Shown piece after piece: positions 3,242-21,690 of a stretch of 64,000 nucleotides of DNA. The position numbers were made by a program, and so were the translations under genes. The notes under the pieces are model-generated. The model worked only from the letters and a program-made list of their open reading frames with translations. It was not told where the DNA came from and ran no database searches. This DNA is from an uncultured Bacteroidales bacterium. Lineage in GTDB: Bacteria; Bacteroidota; Bacteroidia; Bacteroidales; UBA932. Where the stretch lies: positions 1 to 64,000 of the forward strand of contig CAMZGD010000011.1 in assembly GCA_947306365.1 (NCBI GenBank). Direction: 5' to 3'. Each line of letters begins with the position of its first letter. Positions within the stretch are counted from its first letter, which is position 1.

Positions 3242-3315
3242 GGTCCCTTAGCTCAGTCGGTCAGAGCAGCGGACTCATAATCCGTGGGTCGCAGGTTCAA
3301 GTCCTGCAGGGACCA
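3242..3315 (+). tRNA. tRNA with anticodon CAT (elongator Met, or Ile2)
   Basis: A full cloverleaf is visible. The acceptor stem is GGTCCCT/AGGGACC with discriminator A3315. The anticodon stem GCGGA/TCCGT holds the loop CTCATAA, so the anticodon is CAT, and the T-arm loop is TTCAAGT. CCA is not encoded. The body GGTCCCTTAGCTCAG and the anticodon arm resemble both elongator tRNA-Met and the lysidine-modified tRNA-Ile2, and sequence alone does not decide between them; the first base pair (not C-G) argues against initiator Met. There is no room for a promoter between the preceding hairpin and the tRNA, so it is probably processed from the rpsJ transcript. Confidence 0.93.
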
Positions 3316-3326
3316 CTTCCCCTCTG

Positions 3327-5120
3327 TCAGGTTTCAGGAACGACCTTGCATTCGCAGGTCGCTTCGATCTTTCCCACCTTCAGGGTGATGGTGCACGTGC
3401 CCGGCGCTACGGCCGTCACGACGCCCTTGTTCGAAACGGTGGCGACGGTCTTGTCGCTGGTGCTCCAGGCCGGCTTGTCGGTCGTATTGCCGGGATCGAC
3501 GGAATAGGTCAGGGTGAACGAGGCGCCTGCCTTGAGTTCGATCTTGTTCTTGTTGAGCTTGACTTCCTCCGCCGGGATGCGCCGGTCGAATTCCACGACT
3601 TTCATCAGGGAGTGGCTCCGCCAGGTAAGGAACATCGCGATGCGGAATTTCCGCGTGAGGTCCCAGTCGTCTGCATAGCCGGTATGGAAGCGTACGTCGT
3701 AGATGGTGTTGTATTCGACGCCCTCGTCGATCTTCGTCGTGCGGAACTCCACGACGGCCACGTCGGTCACATAACCGTCGTCGACGGCGATGGCATCGAA
3801 GTGGATGTCGGCTGCCTCCTGGTAGGCCGCATAGCTGGAAAGCACGTCTTTTGACGAAAGCGTATCCTTCACGAAGACCAGCAGATGGTATTTGTAGGAG
3901 GTTTCCGGCATGACGTAGTTGGCTGCAAGGGAAAGTTCCGTGATTTCAGGGGCATATTCCCGGGTGCGGGGGATCGAGATGACCGTTCCGTCCGTCAGGG
4001 TCAGGGAAACCCGGGAGGGATCGGAGACATCGGCCGCCGTGAAGAAGTCGAGCACGACGCTGCCGGTGGCGGCGACGGCGTTGCCGTCCTTGTCGCGCAT
4101 CATCTCCGTCTCGCCGCCTTCATAGGAGACGGTGAAATAGATGGTCCCGAGCGAATCGACGAGTCCGATGTGCGGCGTAACGTCCTCGTAGGAGACGCAG
4201 ATCATTTCGCCTTTGTAGCGGAGCCATTCGAACGGCTGGTCGGAACGGTTGCGGAACACCCAGTAGTACTTGCCGTCGGTGTAGGCCTTGGCGCTGAGCA
4301 GGACGGAATCCCGGCTGCTGAGGCCGTTGCGGACCGTCAGTACCTTTCCGCTTTCCAGCGTGAACCGGTAGCCTTTCTCGCCGTTCTCCTCATAGGCGGT
4401 GACGTCGGAGACGAAGATGTCCTTGTTGAGGTTCTCCACCAGGTCCGTATAAGTCTTGAACTGTTCGTTGATGGAATTGCACTGCTGGGTGAGTTCGTCA
4501 AAGGCTTTCTGGGTGGGCATCCGGAAATAGTTGTATTCACTGATGCAGAACAGCACGTAATACGGGTCGGAGGTGTCGATGCTCGAAAAGACGGAAGAGC
4601 CGGGTTCTCCCTGCGCCGGTCCCCAGTAGCATTTGTTCCAGGAGGTACCGTCGAAGGTGTACCACCAGACGCCGTCTTCGATCTTCAGGCGCGGGACCGT
4701 TCCGGAGGCCCGGACGCGGAGCCCGTAGCTGTTGGTCATCCAGGTCGGCGTACCGCTTTCTCCCATCTGGATGGTCCAGTAGTAGGCTTCGTATTCTTCG
4801 TTGTAGCGGACGCCGACAATCGGCTTGACACCGTCGATGCCGCTGGTGAGAATGAGGGTGGATCCGCTGGTGAAGGTAACCCGGTAGGCTTTCCGTCCCT
4901 CGCTCACGAATTCGGTAACGCCCGCGATGTGGTCGTTCTTCTCGAGGGCGGAAATCAGGTCGGAGAGGGCGTTCAGGGAGCTGTTCAGGGAGCTGACCTT
5001 CGCTTCGAGCGCGGCGACGTCTTCCTTGAGCTCGTCGATCCTGCGGTCAAGGTCTCCGTGGCAGCCGGCCAGCAGCAGCGCGCTTGCGGCAAGGATGAGC
5101 GTAATGCAGATTCTTTTCAT
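3327..5120 (-). CDS. DUF4988 (PL29 N-terminal-like) lipoprotein with C-terminal BIG2 domain
   Basis: This 597-residue lipoprotein has a signal peptide ending LLAGC with the lipidated Cys at 20. A heptad-rich coiled coil follows (about residues 22-62, RIDELKEDVAALEAKVSSLN). Next come repeated DUF4988-type units, recognisable by EAYYWTIQMGESGTPTWM and KYYWVFRNRSDQPFEWL. Residues about 515-595 form a bacterial Ig-like (BIG2) domain with PAWSTSDKTVATVSNKGVVT. The protein is probably anchored in the outer membrane; its function is unknown and I see no catalytic motif. It is the last gene of a five-gene minus-strand operon, 14 nt after its paralogue at 5135, and its stop lies 11 nt from the tRNA on the other strand. 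The BIG2 domain is absent from its two paralogues. Confidence 0.85.
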   Translation of the reverse strand: MKRICITLILAASALLLAGCHGDLDRRIDELKEDVAALEAKVSSLNSSLNALSDLISALEKNDHIAGVTEFVSEGRKAYRVTFTSGSTLILTSGIDGVKPIVGVRYNEEYEAYYWTIQMGESGTPTWMTNSYGLRVRASGTVPRLKIEDGVWWYTFDGTSWNKCYWGPAQGEPGSSVFSSIDTSDPYYVLFCISEYNYFRMPTQKAFDELTQQCNSINEQFKTYTDLVENLNKDIFVSDVTAYEENGEKGYRFTLESGKVLTVRNGLSSRDSVLLSAKAYTDGKYYWVFRNRSDQPFEWLRYKGEMICVSYEDVTPHIGLVDSLGTIYFTVSYEGGETEMMRDKDGNAVAATGSVVLDFFTAADVSDPSRVSLTLTDGTVISIPRTREYAPEITELSLAANYVMPETSYKYHLLVFVKDTLSSKDVLSSYAAYQEAADIHFDAIAVDDGYVTDVAVVEFRTTKIDEGVEYNTIYDVRFHTGYADDWDLTRKFRIAMFLTWRSHSLMKVVEFDRRIPAEEVKLNKNKIELKAGASFTLTYSVDPGNTTDKPAWSTSDKTVATVSNKGVVTAVAPGTCTITLKVGKIEATCECKVVPET

Positions 5121-5134
5121 TTTCGTTTCCTCCC

Positions 5135-6598
5135 TTATTTTGCCTCAATGGTGATCACGACCGTTTTCATCTTTCCGTGGCCGTTGGAAACCAGGAGATT
5201 CAGTTTGCTGGTCCTGGGCTTGGTGAAGCCTGTCGGCGAGATGACCGTGATCTTCCAGCTCTTGTAGTTGGTCGTTCCGGCCGAGGCGAAAAACCCGTCC
5301 CGGGTCACCGGCAGCACTTCGGCACGGGCGTCGGCGTTGCTCAGCTGGCAGTTGAAGGAAACGGTGTCGCGGGCGCCCATGCCCAGGACGCCTTTGTTGA
5401 CCGGCGAGGAGACCGATACGGAGAAAGTGCCCGCCATCGGGACCTGTATCGTCTGTCCGCCGTCCAGCGTGATGCAGACGATGTCGTCGCGGACGGAAAC
5501 GACCGAAAGCACGACGGGATCCGGCACATCGTTGCTGACACAGACCTTGGCTCCGTCGCAGAGCAGGAAGGCCGGCGCCTCGTCGCCATAGGCGATCGCC
5601 CAATAGTACTTGTCGTCGGTGTCTTTCATCAGCGAAATTTTCGGAAGCAGGCCCTGCGGGGCGTTGGCCTGGATTTTCCGTCCGTTTTCGTCGAGGATCC
5701 ACTGCGGTTCCCCGTCCGCGTAGCGGATAGTCCAGTACCAGATGTCGTCGTCCGGATCGCCGGTGGCCTTGCGGGCGCCGATGACCGGTGCGTTCGTGCC
5801 GGTTCCGTTGTAGAAGGCGTAGGAATCAAAGTTCGAGAGGCAGATGCGGAAGCCGACGGTATCGGTTCCGTCGAGAATCGGAATCAGGTCGTTGACGTAG
5901 ACTTTTTCGTCGAGTTCCTGTGCCATCCGGGTGAAGCTGTCGAGATTCTCGTTGACCTTCCGGCACGCTTCCTCGAGCTTCTCGAAGCTTTCCCAGGTCG
6001 GCAGCAGGATGGACGTCCCGTTGAGCAGGTTGAACTGGATGTATTCGCCTTTGTCCTCAACGCTCTTGAAGAAGGAGACGCCGTCCTCGCCGGTAGCCCG
6101 GCCGGCATTGTGCCAGACTTCGCCGCCATCGTAGGTCACCATCCAATAGCCGTTCTCGATTTTGAACTCGGGCGAAGCGGCATCGGTGGGAATCCGGACG
6201 CCGTAGTTGTCGGTCAGGAAGGAGGCCTGCTTGTCGGAGGGATATTTGACGGTCCAGTACCAGACCCCGTCTTCCCCCTTTCCGACACCCAGTACGGGCG
6301 TCTCGGCATCGGTTCCGTTGTAGAGCGTCACCGGCTTGGAGTGGGTGAAATAAAGCGTATAGCCGACGACCTCGCCGTTGTCGTAGAGGGTTTCCACCTT
6401 TTTCAGGAAGTCGTAGGTGTCGAGCTTGTCGACGATTTGGCGGAGCCCCTCCAGCGTCGTGTTCATCTCCCGGCATCGCTGTTCGAGTTTCTCGATGCGC
6501 CGTTCAAGCTGGTTCAGGTCGCTCTCGATCTGGTCGTAGCAGCCGACGGCAGACAGGAGGGTCAGCAGGAGCAGGCAGGCTAGATATGTCTTTTTCAT
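5135..6598 (-). CDS. DUF4988-type coiled-coil lipoprotein (middle paralogue)
   Basis: A 487-residue lipoprotein with a signal peptide ending SAVGC (Cys20) and a coiled coil immediately after it (IESDLNQLERRIEKLEQRCR). It then has at least three DUF4988-like units with the hallmark DGVWYWTVKYPSDKQASFL, DDIWYWTIRYADGEPQWIL and KYYWAIAYGDEAPAFLL. The C-terminus is a beta-rich BACON-like segment (SFNCQLSNADARAEVLPV) ending in TVVITIEAK. It lies 9 nt downstream of the third paralogue and 14 nt upstream of the first, so all three are translated from one mRNA. All three proteins carry the lipidated Cys at residue 20 followed by the same coiled coil, which supports tandem duplication. The family is common in gut Bacteroidales and its biochemical role is unknown to me. 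Confidence 0.83.
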   Translation of the reverse strand: MKKTYLACLLLLTLLSAVGCYDQIESDLNQLERRIEKLEQRCREMNTTLEGLRQIVDKLDTYDFLKKVETLYDNGEVVGYTLYFTHSKPVTLYNGTDAETPVLGVGKGEDGVWYWTVKYPSDKQASFLTDNYGVRIPTDAASPEFKIENGYWMVTYDGGEVWHNAGRATGEDGVSFFKSVEDKGEYIQFNLLNGTSILLPTWESFEKLEEACRKVNENLDSFTRMAQELDEKVYVNDLIPILDGTDTVGFRICLSNFDSYAFYNGTGTNAPVIGARKATGDPDDDIWYWTIRYADGEPQWILDENGRKIQANAPQGLLPKISLMKDTDDKYYWAIAYGDEAPAFLLCDGAKVCVSNDVPDPVVLSVVSVRDDIVCITLDGGQTIQVPMAGTFSVSVSSPVNKGVLGMGARDTVSFNCQLSNADARAEVLPVTRDGFFASAGTTNYKSWKITVISPTGFTKPRTSKLNLLVSNGHGKMKTVVITIEAK

Positions 6599-6607
6599 CG
6601 CTATTCC

Positions 6608-8065
6608 TTATTTTTTCTTGACGGTGATGGTCTTGATGACGGTAACCGTGTTGGTTTTCGTCTCGAAACTGAAGCACGCAATCACTTTTGCAGTTGCGTT
6701 GCCATACGAGGCGGGTGCCGTGATCCGGATGTAGTTCCTGCCGTCCTTGGTTTCCTCGGTCGCCGTCACGCCGCCCTGCGTCAGCAGCGAAAGGCTGGCC
6801 GAAGGGCCGTTGGCGACGTACTCCAGGGTGGTTTCCTTCCCGGCGGCCAGGGTTATCGTCCCCGAGAACGGGTTGCCGCCCGCATCGGTAAGGGTGACCG
6901 TATATTGCATGGGCAGGTTGAAGCGGGTCTTTCCGTCCTTGAGCACGACCACCAGCGAGTCGGCATAGGTCTTGACCGAGGAGAAGGCGCTGGCGACGGT
7001 GTCGATGACGTGGGGCGTCCAGCCGCTGTCGACGGGGAACCGGAGCAGTTCGGTGTTTCCCCGGGAGGTCACCGTCCAGTAATACTGTCCGTCCTTGTCG
7101 TGCGTGACGGAGACCAGCGGGACTTCCACGGCGTCGCTGGAAGCGGAAATCTTCGCGCCGTCCGGTGAAAGCACCCAATGTTCCTCAGACGAACCGATGG
7201 TGTAGGCCCAGTAAAGTTTCCCGTCGGTGTCTTTCTTGATGTAGATGGCCGGACTGACCGAAGCGGTCCAGTCGTGGATGCGGAAACTCTTTCCGTTGGA
7301 AAGGGTTACCGACAGGCCGACGGTGTCTTTTCCCGAGAGGACCGGCGCGACGCTGGTGATGTAGGTCAGCCGGTCGATGCTGGCCCGCACCAGTTCGATC
7401 TGGGCGGTGACGTTCTCGTTGGTCTTGTCGAATTCCGTCTTGAGCTTCAGGTACGTGTTGTATGTGGGAATCTTGAATACCTCGCCCGTCGTGAGCGTAA
7501 AGGTCACAAAGTTTTCGTGGCTGGTATCGATCGAGGCAAACATCTGGTCTCCGTTCTGGCCGTCGGCTTTCCCGAGCTGCGTCCACTGCTGCCCGTCGAT
7601 CGTATAATAGAAATAACCGTCGCGGATGGTGATGAAGGGCAGCACGCCGATGGAGAGCATCTTGCTTCCGTCCGGCGCGAGCAGCCATTGCGACGGCCCG
7701 TCCCCGTACTGGACGGTCCAGTAATAGTTCCCGTCTTCACTGTCGCGCTGGCTGGAGACGAGCGGCTTCTTTCCGTCCTGGCCGTTGGTGATGGTGATGG
7801 ATTCGTGCTGGACGAAGTTGATTCGGTAGCCCGTCACCGTGGATCCGGAGCGGATTTCGGTGATGCCGGTGACCATGTCCTGGCTTTCGATGACCGTCAC
7901 CAGTTCCCGGAGGCTGGCAAGGCTGCTGTTGATCTGGTCGCAAAGGAGATTCAGGTCGTCGACCCGTCCCTGCAGCTCGTCGATCTTCTGGTAGTAGATC
8001 TCGTTGCAGCCCGTCGTCAGCAGGAGCAGCACGCCCAGCAGTGCCGATGCAAATTGTCTTTTCAT
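6608..8065 (-). CDS. DUF4988-type coiled-coil lipoprotein (first paralogue in the operon)
   Basis: The frame is open further upstream, but the start is placed at ATG 8065. There it gives a signal peptide ending LLTTGC (Cys20), with a 2-nt gap from the upstream barrel gene; longer versions would overlap that gene. The protein has 485 residues: coiled coil IDELQGRVDDLNLLCDQINS, then DUF4988-type units (GNYYWTVQYGDGPSQWLL, KLYWAYTIGSSEEHWVL, GQYYWTVTSRGNTELL) and a beta-sandwich C-terminus ending in KTITVKKK. A Leu/Ile-rich helix between units (about residues 185-215) may be a second coiled coil. Coupled to the Omp85-like barrel, it is the most likely direct partner or client of that barrel, but this is inference from position only. 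Confidence 0.83.
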   Translation of the reverse strand: MKRQFASALLGVLLLLTTGCNEIYYQKIDELQGRVDDLNLLCDQINSSLASLRELVTVIESQDMVTGITEIRSGSTVTGYRINFVQHESITITNGQDGKKPLVSSQRDSEDGNYYWTVQYGDGPSQWLLAPDGSKMLSIGVLPFITIRDGYFYYTIDGQQWTQLGKADGQNGDQMFASIDTSHENFVTFTLTTGEVFKIPTYNTYLKLKTEFDKTNENVTAQIELVRASIDRLTYITSVAPVLSGKDTVGLSVTLSNGKSFRIHDWTASVSPAIYIKKDTDGKLYWAYTIGSSEEHWVLSPDGAKISASSDAVEVPLVSVTHDKDGQYYWTVTSRGNTELLRFPVDSGWTPHVIDTVASAFSSVKTYADSLVVVLKDGKTRFNLPMQYTVTLTDAGGNPFSGTITLAAGKETTLEYVANGPSASLSLLTQGGVTATEETKDGRNYIRITAPASYGNATAKVIACFSFETKTNTVTVIKTITVKKK

Positions 8066-8067
8066 CT

Positions 8068-9366
8068 TTAGAAGAGATATCCCGTGTTGATGTAGAGTGA
8101 ACCCTTGGCGTTGTCCTGCTTGTCGAAGGCGCGGCCGTAGTCCACGGCGATGATGAAGTTTTTGTTGAGGATGAACCGGAGACCGCCGCCCGCGGACAGG
8201 TGGAAACGTTCCTTCCCGCCGCGGGTGAGCTGCTCGGGGAAGCGGCCCTGGGCGACCATGCCGCTCCAGGCCGCCGCATCGACGGAAACGTCGCCATAGT
8301 CCTTCAGGACGCGGCCGCCGTCGAAAAAGGCGTTCGCCCCGAAGGAGACGTTCTGGTTGAAGATCGTGGTGTGGTAGAACTTCCAGCGGAGTTCGGTGTT
8401 GAAATAGCACAGGCTCTGCCCCTGGACGCGGTTGCGGAGCAGGCCGCGGAGGGTGCGGTAGCCGCCGAACCCGTCGCGGTCGTAGCCCGGGCCGAGCACC
8501 GATTCATAGGGAAGGACGTAGAAAGCGGGTTTGCCGAGAAAGCCCTGGATGTTCGCCCGGTAGGCAAAGACCAGCCGCTCTCCGGAAAGCGGGAAATACT
8601 GCCGCATCACGGCATAATAGCGTCCGTACGGCTTGTTGGTACCCATCCATTTGGGCGCCCATTCCATGAAGGCGTCGGCCCAGATGCCGCGGGTGGGGGC
8701 GTTCTCCGCGTCGCGGCTGTCGTAGGACAGGCCGGCCCGCCAGGCGCTGGTCATGCCGCCGTTGAATTCGTCGGCTTCGATGAAACCGAGGTCCTTATAC
8801 CAGGCGAACAGGGTCTTCCCGTAAGGGAGTTCCTGAAGGTTTTCGCTTTCGAATTCGTTGAGGATGAAATACTTGAAATGGTATCCGAATTTCCAGAAGA
8901 AGTGCTCCGTAATCTTGCCGGTGAAGTCGATCTTGCCGTAGGGGACCATCCGGCCCATCCGGTAGTAGGCCGTGGGCAGGGAAGCGTCGTACCAGGAGGC
9001 GTAGCCGTTGAAGCCATAGAAGTCGAGCGCCTTGTCGCGGCTGAACTGGGCCGCAAAGGAGAACCGCACGCCGGGAATCAGGAACCGGTTGTCGTAGTTC
9101 AGCACGTAGAGCTGCGAGCCTTTCGTGAAGGCCGATGCTTCGAGGTAGAGCTGCTGGCGGGGATTGGGATACCAGCCGCCCTTTCCGAAGTCGTAGACAT
9201 TGGCCAGGGCGCCGTACTGGAAGCCTTTGTCCTGGTCGAAGGCGACAATCGGGAAACCGCCGAAGGAAAATCCTTTCTTCTCGATGTCCTTGTCGGCTTT
9301 TTCCTGGGCCGCCGCGCCGAAGGCGAAGGCCAGGAAAACCAAAACTGTCACGGTATGTTTCATCAT
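8068..9366 (-). CDS. Omp85/BamA-like outer membrane beta-barrel without POTRA domains
   Basis: The 432-residue product has a signal peptide (MMKHTVTVLVFLAFAFGAAA) and then goes directly into amphipathic beta-strands rich in aromatic residues, ending in a C-terminal outer-membrane strand ...INTGYLF. A GGYRTLRGLLRNR segment near residue 300 resembles the conserved RGF-like lid motif of Omp85 barrels, and the SAGGGLRF segment is also typical of the family. No POTRA repeats precede the barrel, unlike BamA or TamA. The chosen ATG at 9366 overlaps the upstream acyltransferase stop as TGATG, implying translational coupling; ATG 9363 is an alternative. With an acyltransferase upstream and three lipoproteins downstream, a role in lipid or lipoprotein handling at the outer membrane is plausible but unproven. 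Confidence 0.8.
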   Translation of the reverse strand: MMKHTVTVLVFLAFAFGAAAQEKADKDIEKKGFSFGGFPIVAFDQDKGFQYGALANVYDFGKGGWYPNPRQQLYLEASAFTKGSQLYVLNYDNRFLIPGVRFSFAAQFSRDKALDFYGFNGYASWYDASLPTAYYRMGRMVPYGKIDFTGKITEHFFWKFGYHFKYFILNEFESENLQELPYGKTLFAWYKDLGFIEADEFNGGMTSAWRAGLSYDSRDAENAPTRGIWADAFMEWAPKWMGTNKPYGRYYAVMRQYFPLSGERLVFAYRANIQGFLGKPAFYVLPYESVLGPGYDRDGFGGYRTLRGLLRNRVQGQSLCYFNTELRWKFYHTTIFNQNVSFGANAFFDGGRVLKDYGDVSVDAAAWSGMVAQGRFPEQLTRGGKERFHLSAGGGLRFILNKNFIIAVDYGRAFDKQDNAKGSLYINTGYLF

Positions 9367-10658
9367 CAAATCGTTTTCAATTGCATCATCAAATCGTTCT
9401 TCATGTCCCGGAGCCGTCCGTTGAACAGGTATCTCCAGGAAGAGGCGCACCGGCGTACTTCCTCGAACCAGTCATAGGTAAGCATCGGCGCCGGGACCAG
9501 CAGGGCCAGCGCGGCGAGGGCCCAGTACCACTTCACCGTACACAGCAGCACGATGGCCCAGACAGGCAGCAGCAGCGTCCAGATGGCCATGATCGCACAG
9601 CAGCGGAAGGAGTTGCGGAACGCGCGGTCTTTCACGCCGGCGGCCAGTTTCTCTCCCACCAGCCAGGCGGGCAGCGAAGCGAGGGCCAGCACGAGAGCGA
9701 AAGGCAGGTCGACCAGTGTCTTGAGCGTACGCAGCAGGGCCGAACCCAGCGGATTCCGGGTATAGATGGCGTGGAGGCTTATGCGGGCACGACGCCGTTC
9801 CTCGGTAAAGGCAACGGCTTTTTCAAAGAGCGTACGGGCCTTTTCGGGCATCTTGTCCCGGAGCCGTCCGAGGTCTTCGACGGCTTTCCTGTTGGCCGCC
9901 AGGCGGCGCTGGAGCTGCCGTTCCGGAATGTGCCCGGTCATCAGCTTCGAGAGCTCCCAGGTCGCCTCGTAATCGTCGTCGTCCGGAATGTAGACGATCT
10001 GCTTCTTCAAGGCGCCGGCCGTCAGGTTCCGGATGTCGGTGAGCAGTTCCGCTTCACTGCGCTCCGGGTGGGCGGCGATGTACGCCGAAATGTCGATCGG
10101 CTCACCGACCGATGCCAGCAGCGTCGAGCGATACCGGAAATAGTCGCCGTATTCGCAACCGATCGGCACGATGTACACGGGATCTTTCCCGTCCCGGCCC
10201 CGGTCTGCTCCGTAAGCGATCCGCGCGATTCCTTTTCCGAGCGGGAGCAGGCTGTGCTTGGGACGATGGGCTCCTTCCGGTAAGATGCAGAAAGGCACGT
10301 GATTGTTGAGTACCTCGATGGAGTTTTCAATGGTTTTTTCCGAGTTGAGGACGCTCCGGAACCCGTCGCGGACGCGATGGATGGGCATAATCTTCAAAAA
10401 AGTGAGGATCTTCCGGATTGCAGGCTTCCGGAAGATGTCGGCGCGCGCCACGAACACTTTCTTGTCGCGGTTCATCGCCAGTACGGCCAGCGGGTCCATC
10501 AGGGCGTCGCAATGGTTGGGCGCCAGGATGACGGATCCGTCTTTCGGAATGTTCTCCAGGCCGTCGTAACGGATCTTCTTGAAGGAACCGCGGATATAGG
10601 CGTCCACAATGGGGCGCAGACAGCTGTACCGGCGGTCGTCTTCGTATATCTTCTTCAT
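9366..10658 (-). CDS. PlsC-family acyltransferase (1-acylglycerol-3-phosphate acyltransferase-like)
   Basis: This 430-residue protein carries the catalytic acyltransferase block NHCDALMDP (N48-H49, HX5D spacing as in Gpt2-like members), VARADIFRKP, MPIHRVRDG and ILPEGAHRP, which correspond to the four glycerolipid acyltransferase motifs. The C-terminal third holds hydrophobic helices (LPFALVLALASLPAWLV, AIMAIWTLLLPVWAIVLL, YWALAALALLVPAPML), so it is an inner-membrane enzyme. The expected reaction is transfer of an acyl group to lysophosphatidate or a similar acceptor; the true acceptor is not known. It is the first gene of the operon. A weak -7 box TACCTTAG reads on the minus strand at 10698-10691. 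The downstream barrel gene overlaps its stop codon. Confidence 0.86.
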   Translation of the reverse strand: MKKIYEDDRRYSCLRPIVDAYIRGSFKKIRYDGLENIPKDGSVILAPNHCDALMDPLAVLAMNRDKKVFVARADIFRKPAIRKILTFLKIMPIHRVRDGFRSVLNSEKTIENSIEVLNNHVPFCILPEGAHRPKHSLLPLGKGIARIAYGADRGRDGKDPVYIVPIGCEYGDYFRYRSTLLASVGEPIDISAYIAAHPERSEAELLTDIRNLTAGALKKQIVYIPDDDDYEATWELSKLMTGHIPERQLQRRLAANRKAVEDLGRLRDKMPEKARTLFEKAVAFTEERRRARISLHAIYTRNPLGSALLRTLKTLVDLPFALVLALASLPAWLVGEKLAAGVKDRAFRNSFRCCAIMAIWTLLLPVWAIVLLCTVKWYWALAALALLVPAPMLTYDWFEEVRRCASSWRYLFNGRLRDMKNDLMMQLKTI

Positions 10659-10731
10659 CAGGCAGACAATTCTCCAATATAAATAACTCGCTAAGGTAGA
10701 AAAAACGGAAGATATTTCACAGAAAATTAAT

Positions 10732-10739
10732 TACATTTG
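10732..10739 (+). promoter_or_regulatory. -7 box TACATTTG for the EEP-family gene
   Basis: This matches the Bacteroidetes -7 consensus TAnnTTTG, and the start codon at 10744 begins 5 nt after its G. The transcript would be leaderless or nearly so. No clear -33 TTTG element was seen. Confidence 0.55.
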
Positions 10740-10743
10740 TACT

Positions 10744-11709
10744 ATGGCTTACACGGTGATGTTCTACAATCTCGAAAATCTCTATGACACCATAGACGAT
10801 CCTTCGACAGACGATGACGATTTCACGCCGATGGGCGACAAGCGCTGGACGCGCGAGAAATACCAGAAGAAGCTTTCCAACCTGAGCGAGATCTTCTCGT
10901 CCGTGGCGTCGGCCCACAACGGATTCCCAGTGGTGGCGGGCGTGTCGGAGGTCGAGAACCTGAAAGTCCTTCAGGACCTTGCGGCCCAGAAACGGATGTC
11001 GGGCGCCCACTACAAGTGCCTTCATTTCGAGTCGAACGACGTGCGCGGCGTGGAGGTGGGGATGCTCTACCGGCCCGACAAGTTCACGCTGATGGGATGT
11101 GAGCCGCTCAAGCTGGTGCTCCGCAGCGGCCGTGAATACATCGGGCGGGACATCCTGGCTGCCTGGGGAGAGGTCGAGGGAGAGATGTTCGCCTTCTACG
11201 TGTGCCATTTCCTGTCGCGCCGGGGCGGGGTCGCCTCGTCGGCCGGTTTCCGGCGCGCCGGCGCGGAGACGGCCCGCGACCACGCGGCCGAACTGCGCAG
11301 GCAATATCCAGACATCAAGGTGGTGATTATGGGCGACATGAACGACAGCCCGTCCGACGAATCGCTGGCGGTGCTGCTCAAGGCGCACAAGACCATTTTC
11401 AACGTGCCCGAAGGAGAATACTTCAATCCGTTCTGGATGCTGGCCGAAGAGGGAAAAGGCACCAGCATCCACAACCACCGCTGGGTGCTTTACGACAACA
11501 TCATCGTGTCGCACAACCTGCTGCCCACCTGTCCGGGGCTCAAGGGGTTCCGGGTGGTGCGCGTCGACGGCAAGAACCACTACGGCGAGATCTTCCGCCG
11601 GAATTTCATGCTGCGGAAAGGCGCACCGCGCCGGAGTTACTACGGCAACACCTTCGCCGACGGCTACAGCGACCACCTTCCGGTCCTGATCAAACTCGAC
11701 AGGCGATGA
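10744..11709 (+). CDS. Endonuclease/exonuclease/phosphatase (EEP) family protein
   Basis: This 321-residue protein has the EEP fold signature: an N-terminal FYNLENLYDTIDD strand with the metal-binding Asn-Glu region, VAGVSEVEN, the central GDMNDSP motif and the C-terminal YSDHLPVLIKLD with the catalytic Asp-His pair. Such enzymes cleave phosphodiester or phosphomonoester bonds in nucleic acids or other phosphate esters using Mg2+. There is no signal peptide, so it is probably cytoplasmic. The next gene (HAD hydrolase) starts within its stop codon (ATGA), so the two are cotranscribed. The substrate cannot be told from sequence; many Bacteroidetes members are annotated only as family proteins. 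Confidence 0.88.
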   Translation: MAYTVMFYNLENLYDTIDDPSTDDDDFTPMGDKRWTREKYQKKLSNLSEIFSSVASAHNGFPVVAGVSEVENLKVLQDLAAQKRMSGAHYKCLHFESNDVRGVEVGMLYRPDKFTLMGCEPLKLVLRSGREYIGRDILAAWGEVEGEMFAFYVCHFLSRRGGVASSAGFRRAGAETARDHAAELRRQYPDIKVVIMGDMNDSPSDESLAVLLKAHKTIFNVPEGEYFNPFWMLAEEGKGTSIHNHRWVLYDNIIVSHNLLPTCPGLKGFRVVRVDGKNHYGEIFRRNFMLRKGAPRRSYYGNTFADGYSDHLPVLIKLDRR

Positions 11710-20387: not shown

Positions 20388-21629
<1,242 letters not shown>

Positions 21630-21632
21630 AAT

Positions 21633-21690
21633 TTTAGCCTTTTTTTAGCGTGGTTGGCAAGCAGTCAAATCCATCCACTTTGTTAATGGC
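21633..21690 (-). promoter_or_regulatory. Candidate SAM-II/SAM-V-type riboswitch in the metK leader
   Basis: Read on the minus strand, the leader contains a GTGG/CCAC stem (21678-21675 with 21653-21650) enclosing a loop with ATTTGA (21670-21665) and TTGC (21660-21657). The stem is followed by GCTAAAAAAAGGC before the ATG. SAM-II and SAM-V riboswitches share a core of this order: stem, AUUUGA-like and UUGC-like loop bases, then a GCUAAA tail forming a pseudoknot near the start codon. Position in front of metK supports the call. I recognise the core from memory and have not run a covariance model. Confidence 0.5.

Follow-up and report, generated by a model that had tools for sequence, protein, structure and literature searches.

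A POTRA-less Omp85 barrel operon in an uncultured Bacteroidales bacterium and the association of such barrels with inner-membrane transporters

Gene organization of the operon

The stretch of DNA analyzed here, hereafter called the window, comprises positions 1 to 64,000 of contig CAMZGD010000011.1 (assembly GCA_947306365.1) from an uncultured Bacteroidales bacterium of the UBA932 lineage. It contains a five-gene operon encoding a PlsC-like acyltransferase, an Omp85-family outer-membrane barrel without POTRA domains and three predicted lipoproteins with DUF4988 matches (lipo1, lipo2 and lipo3). Comparison of the barrel with its relatives brings out a new point, namely that a BASS-family (bile acid:Na+ symporter-like) transporter is its partner in most of them and that other POTRA-less Omp85 barrels, too, pair with inner-membrane transporters. 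Genes were called by a home-made open reading frame picker, and transmembrane (TM) segments were counted in Kyte-Doolittle windows. The genes of the operon, in the order of transcription, are as follows.

9366-10658, minus strand: acyltransferase, 430 amino acids (aa), PlsC-like (PF01553)
8068-9366, minus strand: POTRA-less Omp85-family barrel, 432 aa, signal peptide, 16 predicted strands
6608-8065, minus strand: lipo1, 485 aa, Cys20, coiled coil and two DUF4988 matches
5135-6598, minus strand: lipo2, 487 aa, Cys20; modelled as coiled coil, beta domain, helix, beta domain and Ig-like domain
3327-5120, minus strand: lipo3, 597 aa, Cys20, coiled coil, two DUF4988 matches and a C-terminal Big_2 domain

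The gaps between these genes are, from 5′ to 3′, -1, 2, 9 and 14 nucleotides (nt), the barrel gene starting with ATGATG and overlapping the stop codon of the acyltransferase gene by 1 nt. The G+C content is 59-60% in each gene and 59% in the window. Because the same genes in the same order are found in two of the three other sampled genomes of the genus (G151 and G169), in which the barrel is 81-82% and the acyltransferase 64-66% identical to that of the window, the five genes are not a chance run of open reading frames. In the third (G133), the best barrel match has only 38% identity and the acyltransferase has no match. An earlier note, made from the sequence of this DNA alone, had read the five genes as one unit, and both the spacing and the conserved order bear this out.

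Barrel and acyltransferase

The barrel matches the Omp85 family PF01103 with 48 bits (cut-off 24) and the NCBIfam model NF047779 (Omp85_fam) with 273 bits (cut-off 200), and no POTRA family is matched by it when hits up to an E-value of 1 are reported. Its predicted fold is a 16-stranded barrel with a signal helix at residues 2-19 and a first strand starting at residue 33, and about 12 residues separate the two. The assignment to an Omp85 type without POTRA repeats in the earlier note thus agrees with both the family matches and the Omp85-like structure predicted. The motif of loop 6 in Omp85 proteins is VRG(F/Y); in this barrel family, R307 and G308 are invariant in 44 sequences, and the following residue is L, M or I, hence non-aromatic, in the aligned rows. 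Sequence searches of the Protein Data Bank (PDB) with the barrel gave no relative. Because the window's genome encodes a separate BamA (G000:C5), the barrel is probably not the general insertase of this genome.

The acyltransferase matches PF01553 with 58.7 bits (cut-off 23), as expected from the earlier description of it as PlsC-like, although it stays below the PlsC/AGPAT equivalog TIGR00530 (33.4 bits against a cut-off of 102.95). The catalytic motif of PlsC/AGPAT is NHX4D; here NHX5D (H49 and D55), a spacing known from fungal glycerol-phosphate acyltransferases, is present in 75 of 75 orthologues, one of which also holds a string fitting NHX4D. A PEGxH motif is present too. Two hydrophobic segments stand out clearly towards the C-terminus (residues 311-329 and 351-369), and the sole match in a PDB sequence search is 5kym (8.6e-08).

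Gene runs around relatives of the barrel

A scan of genome contigs found 417 barrel relatives, of which the best 80 were analyzed as loci. They represent 78 distinct barrels, L128/L130 and L136/L137 being identical pairs, and L121 is on the same contig as L061 (G169). When a run is defined as co-directional genes with gaps of up to 200 nt, the acyltransferase is in the run at 76 of the 80 loci, a transporter of the BASS family at 58 and lipoproteins at 22. The commonest arrangement is BASS-acyltransferase-barrel (48 loci), followed by acyltransferase-barrel-lipo1-2-3 as in the window (15 loci, 14 distinct), all six genes in the order BASS-acyltransferase-barrel-lipo1-2-3 (six loci, five distinct) and acyltransferase-barrel (four loci). 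BASS adjoins the barrel at two loci in which no acyltransferase was found (L162 and L192), and two further barrels lack BASS, acyltransferase and lipoproteins alike (L144, and L154 at a contig edge). Single loci have the order acyltransferase-BASS-barrel, a split BASS gene, and a split acyltransferase with lipo1 only (L124, at a contig end). Fewer than 1500 nt lie behind the barrel at eight loci, seven of which are without lipoproteins. Of the link that the earlier note drew from gene order, the part that joins acyltransferase and barrel therefore stands (76/80), whereas the part that joins lipoproteins and barrel extends to only 22 loci. The six-gene loci indicate how the form seen in the window could have arisen, namely by BASS moving away while the rest stayed.

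At the Alistipes/Rikenellaceae loci L153, L155, L159, L160, L165, L172 and L181, a DUF819-like gene lies near BASS-acyltransferase-barrel on the opposite strand.

BASS transporter and its pairing with the acyltransferase

G151, G169 and the genome of the window all retain BASS at a site away from the operon, where it adjoins uridine kinase-like and asparaginyl-tRNA synthetase-like genes (named by sequence). In the window's genome, one piece of it is seen at an end of contig C8 and the other at an end of C30. Loss of BASS from the genus was considered and rejected, since the gene is found elsewhere in the genome.

The BASS partner matches PF01758 with 134.9 bits (cut-off 24.3). It is not filed in the subfamily TIGR00841, because its scores of 167.5 and 171.8 bits are below the cut-off of 326.3, and it reaches 105-120 bits against the PanS model (cut-off 400). 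It is homologous to ASBT_NM (5e-35). Of two motifs that are presumably sodium-site motifs, PGGxxSN is present in 56 of 56 copies and ExGxQNS, by a strict pattern, in 39 of 56. An excerpt of PMC10645422 names bile acids, sulphated steroids and pantoate as the cargo of BASS proteins and describes many of these proteins as sodium-coupled.

The acyltransferase-BASS pair is more widespread than its join with the barrel. At the level of the order, 119 genomes, nearly all with different family codes, were compared, with a threshold of E≤1e-15 for the acyltransferase and with BASS matches of E about 1e-70 or better (38 of the 49 genomes with any match). The acyltransferase is found in 51 of them, close BASS homologues in 38 and both in 36 (Fisher test, P = 4e-16); in 23 genomes, of differing family codes, no more than 3 kilobases (kb) separates the pair. 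At the level of the family (59 genomes), the acyltransferase is present in 22 genomes, BASS in 21 and the barrel in 26 after weaker matches are dropped (from 35, 26 and 33, respectively); acyltransferase and BASS are adjacent in 15 genomes, acyltransferase and barrel in 15, and BASS and barrel in 12.

Transporters upstream of other POTRA-less barrels

A phylum survey with NF047779 gave matches at E≤1e-40 in 9 of 247 genomes, and the transporter survey was therefore run at the order and family levels. It covers 70 other barrels, selected by leaving out contig-edge fragments, some weaker family matches and the BASS/acyltransferase clade (L061-L072 and L121-L200) and by keeping L074 and L105, both from the window's family. 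A co-directional upstream gene within 100 nt is present for 30 of these barrels, and 18 of the 30 genes encode at least six TM segments. All 18 are confirmed as transporters by Pfam: ten belong to DUF819, five to SSF and one each to SBF, the amino-acid permeases and MatE. In controls, none of 29 downstream genes encodes at least six TM segments; among background genes the count is 36 of 458, and among other co-directional pairs it is 18 of 244 (Fisher test, P = 5e-11). Upstream of BamA, such a gene is seen in 0 of 26 cases, taken from 30 loci out of 58 genomes with a BamA match.

The type of partner follows the barrel tree (96 rows, built by a quick method), because the partner labels need 12 changes on it as against 39.6 when shuffled; L069-L071 were labelled "other" in this count despite BASS upstream. 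The BASS/acyltransferase barrels, L144 included, are on one branch (100%, length 0.97).

Several of these loci have further genes. At L076 (8390-12453) and L105, a beta-eliminating lyase (tryptophanase family), a DUF819 transporter and a POTRA-less barrel stand in one run, a candidate amino-acid uptake unit in which the barrel would be the outer-membrane partner; at L073, DUF819 is accompanied by a DDAH-like enzyme. A second barrel of the same family in the window's genome (L080, G000:C27:2331-3695) stands between a DUF4301 gene and genes for an FGGY kinase and an MIP channel, and similar kinase and channel genes are near the barrels of L077 and L079. SBF and DUF819 are placed in the same CPA/AT clan in an excerpt of PMC8396727; a function of DUF819 was not found in an excerpt of PMC12671195.

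Three DUF4988 lipoproteins

In lipo1, lipo2 and lipo3, Cys20 follows a hydrophobic signal, and all three are predicted from their sequences to be lipoproteins with a lipobox Cys after the signal peptide. They match DUF4988 (PF16378) with 98.8, 145.3 and 128.3 bits, respectively (cut-off 30), each having two matches, and the operon holds six of the seven DUF4988 matches of the genome. The coiled coils begin within a few residues of the Cys predicted to be lipidated. This position of the coiled coils, the paired DUF4988 matches and the Big_2 domain of lipo3 are absent from the earlier note. The N-terminal part also matches NF058554, the model of BT3328-type hyaluronan lyase, with 65-75 bits, the cut-off of 1100 applying to the whole enzyme.

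The structural model of lipo2 has a predicted local distance difference test score of 73 and a predicted template modelling score of 0.51; its domain arrangement is unsure, and its C-terminal Ig-like domain is confident. Residues 210-380 of the lipo2 profile match residues 4-164 of the Bacteroides ovatus GH98 endoxylanase (9h6f-h) with an E-value of 2e-11, and the second beta domain of the model superposes on the N-terminal domain of GH98 with a root-mean-square deviation of 2.6-3.4 over 173-177 columns. In a Foldseek search with lipo2, the first rows are poor overall superpositions, and a close fit is seen in the GH98 rows only.

In a tree with 21 rows per paralogue (L124 and L130 left out), lipo1, lipo2 and lipo3 each group with their own orthologues in a clade apart from the other two, with support of 99, 100 and 100%, respectively, in the Shimodaira-Hasegawa-like approximate likelihood ratio test (SH-aLRT); the duplications therefore predate the split of these lineages. 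The earlier note had deduced duplication from the shared Cys20 and coiled coil, and both the features and the deduction hold. The order barrel-lipo1-lipo2-lipo3 is found in 21 of the 80 loci (19 without two duplicates), with gaps of at most 21 nt, and is kept even where the lipoproteins are only 34-43% identical. Because the three paralogues are kept together and their coiled coils start at the lipid anchor, they probably form one coiled-coil hetero-oligomer. A Cys in the coiled coil, present in 17 of 21 lipo1, 15 of 21 lipo2 (including L138, whose lipo2 row is misregistered) and 0 of 21 lipo3 sequences, hints at a possible disulfide between lipo1 and lipo2, although the lipo1 Cys and the lipo2 Cys are not always both present. 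One lipo3 orthologue (L126:14237-18214) has 1325 aa instead of the usual ~600, with a large extension.

The export signal of surface lipoproteins in Bacteroidota consists of acidic residues just after the Cys. The acidic fraction at positions +2 to +6 is 0.21 in lipo1, 0.28 in lipo2 and 0.37 in lipo3 (21 rows each, the misregistered row among them), which gives no clear signal.

Surroundings of the operon

Other features of the operon and of the region upstream of it are as follows.

3348-3569, minus strand: Big_2 domain of lipo3, with positions calculated from its residues 518-591
10659-10743, no strand: 85 nt of intergenic DNA separating the operon from the divergent gene, presumed promoter region
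10744-11709, plus strand: PF19580 endonuclease/exonuclease/phosphatase family protein, divergent neighbour

The PF19580 neighbour is seen in 21 of the 21 loci with the barrel and three lipoproteins; it is not counted in the unit. A TANNTTTG motif, presumably the Bacteroidales-type -7 motif, is present at 10732 and points to the divergent gene, and no -7 motif of this type points to the operon within 10659-10743. At the other end, a tRNA-Met gene on the opposite strand (3242-3316) converges on lipo3, its 3′ end being 10 nt away from that of lipo3 (3327), and there is therefore scant room for a terminator. A SAM-II riboswitch is found at 21624-21684 of the window (minus strand; 54.9 bits, Rfam gathering score 44). 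In PHROGs, four of the operon proteins have no match, and the matches of lipo3 are of the Ig-like and coiled-coil kind only. The assembly has 2.14 Mb in 34 contigs and is 86.9% complete, and its nearest named relatives are Bacteroidales metagenome-assembled genomes, mostly from rumen, omasum or reticulum.

Proposed function and alternatives

The operon may represent, in a lineage-specific version, a route by which Bacteroidales take up and acylate a solute. Through the barrel, one solute of small size or amphipathic nature would cross the outer membrane. A BASS-family sodium symporter, encoded at an unlinked site in the window's genome, would then move it through the inner membrane, and the PlsC-like enzyme at the inner membrane would acylate it, thereby trapping it as a lipid. 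Because the carrier is BASS-like and related to ASBT_NM, an organic anion or an amphipathic lysolipid would be the likeliest solute. The DUF4988 trio may be an addition in one part of the group, a Cys20-anchored stalk that would hold beta domains beside the barrel and capture or gate the substrate. We put forward this whole route, from barrel passage through BASS import to esterification by the acyltransferase, with the lipoproteins as a lineage-specific addition, as possible rather than probable. More tentatively still, Bacteroidales POTRA-less Omp85 proteins in general may be substrate channels and not insertases, matched by clade to BASS, DUF819, sodium:solute symporters and glycerol uptake, and the operon of the window may be a two-membrane import-and-acylation route that has gained, in one lineage, a heterotrimeric coiled-coil lipoprotein receptor at the surface or in the periplasm.

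Several observations weigh against this proposal. The gene content points to no particular substrate, and the pore is something that we infer; the barrels of BamA and TamA are described as closed to the outside in an excerpt of PMC4104836. Among the 70 other barrels, 40 stand at a contig edge or lack a close co-directional upstream gene; where there is such a gene, it encodes fewer than six TM segments in 12 of 30 cases. Of the 119 genomes compared for the order, just two have the barrel and the acyltransferase within 3 kb of each other, and none has the barrel that close to BASS; the three-gene unit is therefore restricted to some lineages, which this sample of genomes under-represents. Moreover, the Fisher P-values of 4e-16 and 5e-11 overstate independence, because the genomes counted are related.

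The conservative proposal for "noNterm" Omp85 proteins would make the barrel a dedicated outer-membrane assembly factor, an insertase, with the lipoproteins as accessory subunits. It appears unlikely here, because the barrel is conserved together with a secondary transporter and an acyltransferase and not with an outer-membrane client, the link to an upstream transporter spans several transporter families and is absent at BamA (0/26), and the genome has a BamA of its own. A similarly doubtful scheme reverses the direction, so that the acyltransferase would make a lipid, BASS would move the lipid or its precursor outward and the barrel would place the lipid in the outer membrane. The direction is not told by gene order, and the most widespread pair is indeed acyltransferase-BASS (23/119); in addition, an Omp85 protein of Borrelia in a transporter cluster is read as an exporter of a non-polar ligand in an excerpt of PMC13078400, which tells slightly against uptake. 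However, the BASS substrates named in the excerpt of PMC10645422 and the sodium coupling of many of these carriers argue against export, as does the fact that kin barrels go with DUF819, SSF and an amino-acid permease, and with an FGGY kinase and MIP channel resembling glycerol uptake.

The earlier note had suggested a dedicated pathway for making or moving a lipid or for displaying lipoproteins. Its link between barrel and acyltransferase stands, whereas display of lipoproteins as the core function is rejected, because they are missing in 58 of the 80 barrel loci (seven of the 58 with fewer than 1500 nt behind the barrel) and because phmmer recognized no relative of lipo1-3 among the genes directly next to the 70 other barrels. 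Surface export or display of the three lipoproteins, or of their lipid, through the barrel would account for their tightly spaced and conserved order behind it, even at low identity, and for the concentration of the genome's DUF4988 matches in the operon, yet it is improbable in view of these absences. Least probable of all is mere shared transcription, in which co-expressed envelope genes would have no common substrate: gene order is the sole link among them, and a phosphoglycerate kinase-like gene (named by sequence) and other genes also flank the unit in some genomes, but the adjacency of acyltransferase and BASS in 23 genomes of differing family codes, the adjacency of BASS and barrel even without acyltransferase (L162 and L192) and the clustering of partner labels on the barrel tree all speak against it.

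Relation to known systems and significance

The proposed uptake-and-acylation route resembles a known process. In the LplT-Aas system of lysophospholipid salvage, an MFS transporter is paired with a PlsC-type acyltransferase that has an acyl-ACP (acyl carrier protein) synthetase domain, and the NCBIfam model that the acyltransferase matches best is the Aas model PRK08633, in its PlsC part and far below the cut-off. By analogy, the route would work like this salvage, yet would not be a member of it, since it has BASS (PF01758) in place of MFS and PF01553 only, without the AMP-binding acyl-ACP synthetase domain, and a barrel is added. The BASS partner, present in 58 of the 80 loci, is likewise a relative of ASBT_NM and PanS through PF01758 but differs from them in falling below the TIGR00841 and PanS cut-offs and in standing in an operon with acyltransferase and barrel, and in being unlinked in the window's genome. 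The lipoproteins share a DUF4988-type N-terminal part with BT3328-type hyaluronan lyase and GH98 endoxylanase; unlike these, they are without an enzyme domain and are encoded as three paralogues behind a barrel.

The barrel is an Omp85 barrel without an N-terminal domain, as are the noNterm proteins for which an excerpt of PMC4104836 proposes membrane-protein biogenesis, whereas its neighbours are inner-membrane transporters and an acyltransferase. BBJ25 of Borrelia, as presented in an excerpt of PMC13078400, is also an Omp85 barrel whose gene is grouped with genes for inner-membrane transport, but these specify an ABC transporter and a LolA-like protein and are read as lipoprotein or lipid export, instead of secondary transporters and an acyltransferase as here. 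Among the open-licence literature matches listed, none has a title or opening of an abstract that describes this operon or that presents Omp85 proteins without POTRA domains as solute channels.

To our knowledge, how small solutes outside the cargo of TonB receptors cross the outer membrane in Bacteroidota is poorly known. If the proposal is true, a fold of insertases has taken on the role of a porin, the little-studied noNterm subgroup gains a non-insertase function, and the genomic partner of each barrel names a candidate substrate. The acyltransferase-BASS pair would then indicate an undescribed step of lipid salvage or lipid making in gut and rumen bacteria.

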